DNA of 64,000 nt from Spirochaetes bacterium GWB1_60_80. Lineage in GTDB: Bacteria; Spirochaetota; Spirochaetia; Treponematales; UBA12059. Positions within the stretch are counted from its first letter, which is position 1, and every line of letters begins with the position of its first letter. The position numbers were made by a program, and so were the translations under genes. Location of the stretch: positions 1-64,000 of the forward strand of contig MIAR01000053.1 in the NCBI GenBank assembly GCA_001829185.1, written 5' to 3'. Positions 1-54,246 of this stretch are shown here, in pieces. A model generated the notes under the pieces. It saw nothing but the letters and a program-made list of their open reading frames with translations, was not told the DNA's origin and did not search any database.

Positions 1-82
1 AAATGCATCAACCTGCTTCTCCTCGAATCCACGCATACTGCCCCTCCGCAAACAGTATACCATAGGAATACAAATTTGAGAA

Positions 83-99
83 TTTCAACAGCCTGTTAA
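83..99 (+). mobile_element. Solo end of the 129-bp MITE-like element
   Basis: Thirteen bases at 83-95 match the right terminal repeat of the complete copies at 14254-14382 and 53511-53639 with one mismatch. They are followed by TTAA at 96-99, the same 4-bp flank as the copy near 14.3 kb. The stop codon of the chemoreceptor gene (minus strand TAA, 96-98) lies inside this TTAA. A short TTGAGAA stretch just upstream also resembles the element interior, so this may be an internally deleted remnant. It is short enough that chance similarity cannot be excluded. Confidence 0.4.
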
Positions 100-3609: not shown

Positions 3610-3697
3610 AAAGCCGGTACAATTACGCAGCATAGCGCAAGCTATGCGAGGAATTGTTAAGGTTGTTGAGAAAGCAACCGGCTTTTTCAACAACCTG
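3610..3697 (+). mobile_element. MITE-like element, left-truncated copy 1
   Basis: These 88 bases are identical by eye to the right-hand two thirds of the full elements at 14254-14382 and 53511-53639. They contain the GCATAGC-GCAA-GCTATGC hairpin and the right terminal repeat ending CAACAACCTG. The right flank TTAG (3698-3701) fits the YTAR target pattern. The left 41 bases are missing and are replaced by the GC-rich hairpin at 3587-3608. It lies downstream of both convergent genes, where insertion would be harmless. Confidence 0.85.
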
Positions 3698-13272: not shown

Positions 13273-14238
13273 ATGAACAGGATCCAGAAAATGGCCTTGG
13301 CTAAAATCGCCAGCTTGGCCAGCGCCATCGCCCTGACCATCATCATCATCCACCAATCGTCGATCTACACCCACAGCCGTTTCGTGGTCAAGGAAACGGA
13401 CGCGTCGCTGATTTTCTTCGACAAATATATCGACCGGGGCCTACGCAACACCATCCTGCGCGACCACCAGGCGGCCACGGCCGGTTTCATGACCGAGGCC
13501 GGATTTCTGCCCACCGGCGCCGCCAGCGAGCCGGTCGCCTATTTTATGGCCGACCAGACCTATGGCGTGCTCAGGGTCGACGACCGCCTGGTCCGGCGTC
13601 GCCTGACGGATGCCATCGGCCCGGATTTCTTGCTGCTCGGCCTGGTCGGGGCCAGCGCCTTTCCCAACGAGCTGGTAGTTAACTCGCTGGCCAGCAAAGA
13701 TGGGCGCTACGTCTTCCTGCTGCCTGGCGACAATTGGCAGGAATCGCTGCTCCATGCCTGGGTGCATGCCATGGCCGCCCGCAACCTGCCGCGGGCCGTG
13801 GCCAGCAAATTGAACCCGGACTCCCATTGGGACTACCGAACCGTGCAGGCCTGGCGCTTCGCGGATGAAAGCCTGACCCTGTTTGTCAGCGACCTCTACG
13901 CCACGGCCGAGGCCACCGGCTCGCTTGAGACGGCCTGGCGGGAGATTGCCGCCTTTACCCTGCCCGACTACGCCGATCCGGCGACCGATCTGCGCAGCCG
14001 CGAGAAAATCAAGATGCTGCTGACCCGCGACTACCCGGAACGCTCGGCCGCCCATTACCAGGCCGCGCATGGCTTTGCCATGCACCTGCTGGAGCGCTGG
14101 GGCCGGGAAACCATGACCACCCTGGTGGGCCGCTTCCTGGACGGACGTTATGCTGACCTCGATGAGCTGTTTGATTTCGCCGGTGGCCTGGATGCTGCCA
14201 TGATAGCCTGGCAGGACAGTAGCGACATGCCGGACTAG
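13273..14238 (+). CDS. Membrane-anchored protein, degenerate peptidase MA-like
   Basis: A 321-residue protein with one N-terminal membrane segment or uncleaved signal (residues 8-28, ending HQSS). The rest should be extracytoplasmic. Near residue 160 it has HAWVHAMAARN, and about 45 residues later AWRFADESLTLFVSD, followed by FAMHLLERWGRETM. This layout mimics gluzincins of the peptidase MA group (HExxH, then a WxxEG-like glutamate helix). However, the catalytic Glu of HExxH is Ala, so it is probably inactive; this assignment is my inference. GAGGAG at 13263-13267 sets the ATG, though the frame is open upstream to 13117. Its TAG stop lies within a CTAG that is joined to a MITE end fragment. 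Confidence 0.6.
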   Translation: MNRIQKMALAKIASLASAIALTIIIIHQSSIYTHSRFVVKETDASLIFFDKYIDRGLRNTILRDHQAATAGFMTEAGFLPTGAASEPVAYFMADQTYGVLRVDDRLVRRRLTDAIGPDFLLLGLVGASAFPNELVVNSLASKDGRYVFLLPGDNWQESLLHAWVHAMAARNLPRAVASKLNPDSHWDYRTVQAWRFADESLTLFVSDLYATAEATGSLETAWREIAAFTLPDYADPATDLRSREKIKMLLTRDYPERSAAHYQAAHGFAMHLLERWGRETMTTLVGRFLDGRYADLDELFDFAGGLDAAMIAWQDSSDMPD

Positions 14239-14248
14239 CAGGTTGTTG
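14235..14248 (-). mobile_element. MITE end fragment overlapping a stop codon
   Basis: CTAG plus ten bases identical to the end of the copy at 53507-53520 lie one base before the TTAA that flanks the complete copy at 14254. The TAG stop codon of the preceding gene (14236-14238) is part of the CTAG. It looks like a second element of opposite orientation that was largely lost when, or before, copy 2 arrived. Confidence 0.5.
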
Positions 14249-14253
14249 CTTAA

Positions 14254-14382
14254 CAGGGTGTTGAAAAACGCGGATGCGGCTTTTCAACACTTCAAAAGCC
14301 GGTACAATTACGCAGCATAGCGCAAGCTATGCGAGGAATTGTTAAGGTTGTTGAGAAAGCAACCGGCTTTTTCAACAACCTG
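14254..14382 (+). mobile_element. MITE-like element, complete copy 2
   Basis: A 129-bp non-coding element with terminal inverted repeats CAGGGTGTTGAAAAA and (reverse complement of the right end) CAGGTTGTTGAAAAA. It is flanked by TTAA on both sides (14250-14253 and 14383-14386), a 4-bp target duplication. Inside are a 10-bp perfect hairpin (GTGTTGAAAA/TTTTCAACAC), a hairpin GCATAGC-GCAA-GCTATGC, and a third formed by the right end (GGTTGTTGA/TCAACAACC). An outer AAAGCCGGT/ACCGGCTTT pair encloses the last two. It is identical by eye, base for base, to the copy at 53511-53639. It codes for nothing and would need a transposase in trans. Confidence 0.92.
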
Positions 14383-14427
14383 TTAAGGCCGCTTTACCTG
14401 CGGGCCTGTGCCGGGGTAGGATGCGGC

Positions 14428-52978: not shown

Positions 52979-54246
52979 CGGCAGCCGGTCGGTCTGGCCG
53001 ACGGCCAACTCGGCCTCTTCCTGGGCCGCAGCGCCATGGCCGACCGCACTTGGTTAAACGGCCAGCTGGTTAGTAGCGACGGCAGCTTCCCGCCCCGCTT
53101 GTGGAGCGCCTGGAACGTCTACCGCAATTACGCACTACCCTACAGCCTGTACTTGGTCATCATTTCCCTAGCCATGTAGCGACGCGACGCGCCAGCCTTG
53201 CTGGTCGGCGTGTCGCCGATCTTCCTGACCGCCCTCCTGGACGTCGACCTCCACAATATCCTGCAACTCCATGAGCTGCCCTATTTTACCGGCTACGGCT
53301 TCCCGTTGATGATCCTGGGCCTGCCGTTCGCCCTGGCCACCCGTTTCGCCGCCGCCCGCACCCAGGCGGAGGACCTCAACCCAATCTGGCAGGCCTGGTT
53401 GGGGCACGCACTAGCGAATTATCCGCCGCCAATAGCACCTGCGCACTACCCTGCACCAACTGGAAAAAACCACCACGGTAGCCGAGATCGACATGAAGAT
53501 GGCCGTCTAGCAGGTTGTTGAAAAAGCCGGTTGCTTTCTCAACAACCTTAACAATTCCTCGCATAGCTTGCGCTATGCTGCGTAATTGTACCGGCTTTTG
53601 AAGTGTTGAAAAGCCGCATCCGCGTTTTTCAACACCCTGCTAGGTGCAACACCGTTTCTATCCCAAGCAAGCCCCTAAAACCGCCGCCTGGGAAAGCGCC
53701 TTCCGCTTTGAGCCACTGACTGGCGTTTCCGGCAACGCCTTTGGCGAAGGCAGCGGGCAGAGCCTCAAGGTTATAATGGAAGAAATAAATCGTCGCCTGA
53801 CCGCCAAAAAGGGAGCGGCTGAAAATTACGCCACCGGCCTGGTGTTGCGCCTATCGGACAACGTGGTCAAATATGTCAACGCTGGCCACGCCGACCTGCT
53901 TTTCCGCAGCGCCGAGAACGGCCAGGTACACGTCGTCAACCTGCCGGATGGCCGCGATTTCAAGGGCCGCTTCCTGGGTTTGGCCGAATGGCCCAGCGAC
54001 TATGCGACCCTCAAATTCCGGGTCCGACCGGGCGACATGATCTTGGCCTACACCGACTGCCGGGTGGAGAGCCGCAATCCAGCCGGCGAGGAATTCGGCC
54101 TGGATCGCCTGACCGACGCCTTCGCCCGCTGCCGCGACCAGAACTGCGACGCCGTCCTAGCCTGGGTGCTAGACAAACTAGACGATTTCTGCGCCGGCAC
54201 GCCGCGCCAGGACGACCTGACGGCCATCGTTCTCCCGCGGCGCTGA
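52979..54246 (+). pseudogene. Decayed SpoIIE-type phosphatase, interrupted by a MITE
   Basis: Remnant of a membrane phosphatase. From 52979 one frame reads GQLGLFLGRSAMADRTWLNG then SDGSFPPRLWSAWNVYRNY, the end of a jelly-roll sensor domain. After an in-frame TAG (53177-53179) it continues as membrane helices (ELPYFTGYGFPLMILGLPFALATRF). A frameshift near 53430 leads to HQLEKTTTVAEIDMKMAV. The MITE (53511-53639) follows, and the frame resumes as QHRFYPKQAPKTAAWESAF. The first half of the PP2C domain is deleted after LTGVSGNAF; the rest is kept (YVNAGHADLLF, AYTDCRVESRN) to the stop at 54246. The N-terminus is missing. Several independent lesions make it a dead gene. Confidence 0.88.
53511..53639 (-). 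mobile_element. MITE-like element, complete copy 3
   Basis: The 129 bases are the exact reverse complement of copy 2 at 14254-14382. CTAG flanks both sides (53507-53510 and 53640-53643), a 4-bp target duplication. Removing the element and one CTAG rejoins MKMAV-(TAG)-VQHRF in one frame, matching the AVxVQ pattern of related phosphatases. This shows the true insertion site and that the target codon was already a TAG. Confidence 0.95.

Follow-up and report, generated by a model that had tools for sequence, protein, structure and literature searches.

A 129-bp sequence occurs in two full copies in the 64,000-nucleotide stretch that begins contig C53 in the Spirochaetes bacterium GWB1_60_80 genome (G000; 3.6 Mb in 59 contigs, 96% complete), referred to here as the window. 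What kind of element is it, and which enzyme moves it? Every applicable test places it among the MITEs of IS5-family ISs, and we hold with high confidence that it is the non-autonomous MITE of an IS5-family IS of the same genome, moved by an NF033581-type transposase at YTAR targets. The features that support this reading are collected in Table 1. The IS end at the window start, the conservation of a three-hairpin architecture and the solo modules described below go beyond an earlier note on this DNA.

Table 1. The MITE, its substructures and the partner IS end in the window
Feature	Position	Strand	Remarks
Left end of partner IS at contig end	1..95	-	TIR CAGGCTGTTGAAATTCTC; first codons MRGFEEKQVDAF at 36-1
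TTAA target site of the IS copy at window start	96..99	-	
Truncated MITE copy without the left hairpin (positions 42-129 of the element)	3610..3697	+	
CTAG + CAGGTTGTTG, probable remnant of older element end, abuts copy 1	14235..14248	+	
TTAA target duplication, left of copy 1	14250..14253	+	Flank read
Full 129-bp MITE, copy 1	14254..14382	+	Ends CAGGGTGTTGAAAAA / CAGGTTGTTGAAAAA; same letters as at least 40 genomic copies
Left terminal hairpin, holds left TIR	14256..14292	+	Folding and covariation
Central two-step hairpin, GCAA loop	14304..14342	+	Folding and covariation
Right terminal hairpin, holds right TIR	14345..14381	+	Folding and covariation
TTAA target duplication, right of copy 1	14383..14386	+	Flank read
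CTAG target duplication, lower-coordinate side of copy 2	53507..53510	+	
Full 129-bp MITE, copy 2	53511..53639	-	Identical to copy 1
CTAG target duplication, higher-coordinate side of copy 2	53640..53643	+	

Copies of the element and their target duplications

The element is short and non-coding, and its ends match as inverted repeats at 14 of 15 positions. Copies 1 and 2 agree over all 129 bp, and the third copy, lying between a SpoIIE-phosphatase gene and dnaJ, whose 3′ ends face it, lacks the first 41 bases and is identical to the full copies over the remainder. These relationships, together with the TTAA and CTAG direct repeats around the full copies, had been noted by eye and were reproduced here. 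The CTAG-CAGGTTGTTG sequence next to copy 1 is probably the footprint of an older element; its CTAG also contains the stop codon of an ORF ending at 14238. No Rfam family was found in the window, and no plasmid match to the 129-bp MITE was found.

The MITE end pattern CAGGNTGTTGAAAAA, with at most one mismatch, was present 374 times in the 3.6-Mb genome, compared with a single occurrence of a reversed-pattern control. This corresponds to about 180 copies, a density near one in 20 kb. Each of the 40 full-length copies that were scored was 100% identical, and among 37 copies read with their flanks, 33 equaled the window copy letter for letter. An exact 4-bp duplication bordered 34 of the 37 (CTAG 15, CTAA 11, TTAG 4, TTAA 3 and CTAC 1, i.e., YTAR in 33), where a flank match is expected by chance at about 0.005 per site. 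The excess of ends over the control, the identity of the copies and the duplications thus argue that this is not a chance pattern, and they bear out the proposal of a mobile MITE with YTAR duplications on the scale of the genome.

Twenty-nine of the 37 copies were intergenic, as opposed to 25% of the YTAR sites of the window (binomial P ~1e-11, using a rough gene caller), which is the outcome expected from selection against gene disruption. A few copies (L009, L010, L033 and L049) lie within apparent long ORFs and may disrupt genes. At G000:C11:23555-24527 (L057 1556-2528), three MITE copies repeat every 422 bp in a tandem array whose units each include a gene start. The middle copy is one of the three in 37 that lack a matching duplication, as recombination between two copies would produce, and the duplications flanking the tandem fit such an event.

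The resident IS and its homologs

The earlier note had proposed an IS5-family partner with the same ends. We sought it by reading all 118 contig ends of the host genome. Five of these (C6, C37, C51, C53, which is window 1-95 on the minus strand, and C55) carry YTAR followed by CAGGCTGTTGAAA and then ATG-MRGFEEKQVDAF. In full, these left ends read YTAR, CAGGCTGTTGAAATTCTC...GGAGGGGCAGT-ATG CGT GGA TTC GAG GAG AAG CAG GTT GAT GCA TTT (MRGFEEKQVDAF), with two of the five running out a few bases before the others. Right ends, reading YTAR followed by CAGG[T/C]TGTTGAAAATTACACACC, were found at C2, C7, C17, C33 and C40; C7 contributes its outer end, because another copy sits in a TTAA located 24 bp within the first. 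Read in the direction of the IS, the left ends show the duplications CTAA, CTAA, TTAG, TTAA and CTAG, and the right ends show the same five. The ten contig ends therefore look like at least five collapsed copies of one IS, whose left and right ends lie across assembly gaps and cannot be joined.

One right IS end, CAGGTTGTTGAAAA, equals the right end of the MITE at its first 14 bases (14 of 14). Sequence common to MITE and IS is limited to the ends, and the MITE is thus no simple deletion product of its partner. The readable part of the resident transposase comprises 12 residues, the IS body being absent from the assembly. PF01609 (DDE_Tnp_1), PF05598 (DUF772) and NF033581 (IS5_4) gave zero matches in the host genome because the IS copies are collapsed at contig ends and their body is unassembled. 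IS701 (DDE_5) also uses a YTAR target; it was rejected as partner, with PF13546 finding no match in the host genome. Two more high-copy repeat ends, GTTGACTCATAAGTAAAATCTAGCCC and GTTGCCTCATAAGTCAAATTCTAGTCC, each terminate some 15 to 20 contigs of this assembly (L115-L232; e.g., C3.start and C9.end); they have the appearance of a pair of termini from a further abundant IS.

The transposase body could be read in relatives. In a genome of the same order (G068), the left IS end, CTAA followed by CAGGCTGTTGAAATTCCC, runs into MRGNEEKQIDAFIYVSMEDRIPAKHPIRPFK... (with MRGNEEKQIDAFIYVSMEDRIPAKHPIR behind it), and CAGGCTGTTGAAA occurs twice as a right end following transposases that match NF033581 and PF05598/PF01609, with a score of 272.6 bits to the IS5-family model NF033581 (cut-off, 140). 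In G014, from the family of the host, TTAA followed by CAGGCTGTTGAAA leads to MRGMEEKQIDAFCYISMEDRI. A Thauera plasmid IS annotated as IS5 family is bounded by CTAG on both sides (CAGGTTGTTGA...TCAACACCCTG) and encodes a PF05598+PF01609 transposase scoring 230 bits to NF033581; its ends, CAGGTTGTTGA and CAGGGTGTTGA, display the same T/G difference as those of the MITE. PF05598 or NF033581 transposases of relatives other than G068 are without CAGG ends and belong to other ISs. IS5 is reported to duplicate YTAR (PMC10359306), in keeping with the agreement of the left and right sets of duplications in the host and with the flanking CTAG pair in L114.

The observations on which our reading rests are the copies, their identity, their duplications, the IS ends in the host and the homologous transposases behind such ends elsewhere; they support the IS5 partner proposed earlier. 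An IS5-family DDE transposase (NCBIfam NF033581) would bind the common ends CAGGNTGTTGAAA and pair them, excise or copy the MITE, and insert it at YTAR, duplicating the 4 bp. Judging from the ends, the duplications and the family, the MITE is most likely moved in trans by the transposase of the resident IS.

Three hairpins conserved across an order

The 129-bp MITE is predicted to fold into three successive hairpins (-57 kcal/mol; z = -8), in which a two-step hairpin is enclosed by a pair of inverted palindromes. The GCATAGC-GCAA-GCTATGC hairpin reported in the earlier note is present, but the nesting described there is not: the hairpins stand in a row. Relatives in other genera carry elements of 128 to 131 bp that are 70 to 79% similar and have YTAR flanks. 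In an alignment of 28 elements, 95.9% of the cells of the consensus structure were paired, and double-sided changes, distributed over all three hairpins, were present in 25 of the 40 base pairs. None of 500 shuffles reached the observed pairing or double changes, and slid versions were 33 to 46% paired. A covariance model searched against 294 genomes of the order gave matches in 33, a count within which weak matches (E near 1e-4) are to be discounted. The matches include 13 of 23 genomes of the host's own family, its own genome among them, and several in other families with E below 1e-20.

Variants on this architecture were also observed. A 162-bp element of the host (L056 5348-5509) has a central stem that is longer on both sides, and G014 harbors a second three-hairpin subfamily (L068, L071, L073, L075 and L077) with ends CAGGCTGTTGACAAA / CAGGGTGCTGACAA and the same target. 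The CAGGNTGTTGAAA ends, mostly with YTAR flanks, recur in Burkholderiales and other Proteobacteria (L264, L266, L271, L274, L276, L278, L287, L290, L291 and L306), in Planctomycetota (L275, L293, L300 and L305) and in a Treponema MAG (L263, L272 and L281). The CAGGNTGTTGAAA-end MITEs of Burkholderiales, Planctomycetota, Gemmatimonadaceae and the Treponema MAG have unrelated interiors, so that they do not extend the three-hairpin family beyond the order. The lengths of the elements listed above cluster at 128 to 133 bp (107 to 137 allowed), hinting at a preferred length.

The compensatory changes might also stem from palindrome correction, i.e., template switching between hairpin arms, with the architecture passively kept. 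This is compatible with the MITE reading, and we consider it possible, if on the unlikely side. In one G014 copy (L070 2306-2436), the central internal loop has become a perfect palindrome, as template switching would yield, and palindrome correction thus probably happens. However, pure correction would remove the central internal loop, whereas nearly all remaining sequences of the alignment (A1), from different genera, retain an imperfect loop (GCAG-like versus CGAG-like) and a length close to 130 bp. The hairpins would be kept either through selection for the folded form or through palindrome correction, and the persistence of this loop argues for some selection.

Single hairpins also occur on their own. 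The host contains five 48-bp left-hairpin elements (L328, L329 and L331-L333) with exact duplications (CTAG, CTAG, CTAA, CTAG and CTAG, respectively). They could be transposed 48-mers or products of full copies that repeatedly suffered a deletion at the same point; we favor transposition because the inner breakpoint is common while the sites differ. In G014, right-hairpin palindromes of ~37 bp stand alone at about seven places, bounded by YTAR-like sites; CTAG-CAGG...CCTG-CTAG at L063 608-644 is the clearest case, and most of the others have unequal tetramers on their two sides. In the truncated right-hand pieces (window 3610, L052 and L056), the break lies close to one common boundary of the left hairpin. 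As modules also stand alone between YTAR sites, a single hairpin may be the smallest unit able to move. One could go further and regard single hairpins of 37 to 48 bp as complete units for an IS5-family DDE enzyme, the 129-bp element as a two-module composite, and folded DNA (cruciform or single strand) as the form under selection, a REPIN-like life run by a DDE enzyme. We put this forward as a speculation that is rather improbable.

Other readings and related elements

The MITE reading was also weighed against that of a fixed regulatory or structural repeat, such as a terminator, an mRNA stabilizer or a nucleoid site, that is no longer mobile. The intergenic bias, the stable hairpins and their covariation speak for such a repeat; the near-perfect identity of the copies and their intact duplications speak against it, as does their distribution. 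No copy of the family was found in G001, the sole same-genus genome searched. Near the dinG-like gene that has a MITE upstream in the host, the one site compared across relatives, no TIR-like sequence was found in eight of them; in G001 this gene has a different upstream neighbor, so that the comparison there gives absence of the element and not an empty-site alignment. That copies do not hold fixed positions, as the earlier note implied, agrees with these data, and a fixed repeat appears very improbable.

DDE transposases are expected to leave exact 4-bp duplications, which single-strand insertion by Y1 transposases is not. Another reading, in which a REP-associated tyrosine (Y1, HUH) transposase acts on the hairpins and the IS5 ends are coincidental, draws on the resemblance of the ~37-bp solo palindromes and the composite two-palindrome units to REPs and REPINs (PMC3116915), yet it is hardly credible in view of 4-bp duplications that match exactly on the two sides yet vary between copies, and of end sequences and a target that are those of an IS5-family IS in the host genome.

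The REPIN unit consists of two inverted palindromes, and single palindromes occur too (PMC3116915), as they do here. REPINs, which are REP doublets inserted by a Y1 transposase (RAYT) without target duplication, differ from the present MITE in its YTAR duplications, its DDE IS5-family partner and its third, central hairpin. By analogy of organization, the REPIN is the nearest parallel, using another kind of transposase. ERIC elements, ~127 bp long, are likewise intergenic and rich in hairpins, and different genera of a single order retain them; they resemble the MITE in length, structure and retention across genera, whereas the MITE described here comes with exact YTAR duplications and a partner IS in the same genome.

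With other IS5-family MITEs, the element has in common non-coding sequence, high identity, ends shared with a resident IS5-family IS and 4-bp YTAR duplications (PMC10359306). It differs from them in an interior that is a conserved three-hairpin composite and not IS sequence, in its ~180 copies and in its solo modules. The Chunjie MITE of Geobacter uraniireducens (178 to 235 bp, 38 copies; reviewed in PMC10969869) is likewise recently active and mostly intergenic, with conserved TIRs and duplications; the present element is shorter, at 129 bp, more numerous, and has an architecture traced across an order. In Coxiella burnetii, shortened copies of the MITE QMITE2 resemble REPs too (PMC10969869), but the duplications of QMITE2 are 7 to 9 bp and its full length is ~190 bp. 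As far as the literature searched goes, an order-wide conserved three-hairpin composite with very small solo modules is new.

MITEs are usually described one genome at a time, as dead-end deletion products. The occurrence of one architecture through a spirochaete order, with compensatory changes in all three hairpins and with 37- and 48-bp modules, makes a case for structure-dependent mobility that can be tested. The resident IS and some 180 marked sites should be useful to follow genome change in uncultured spirochaetes.
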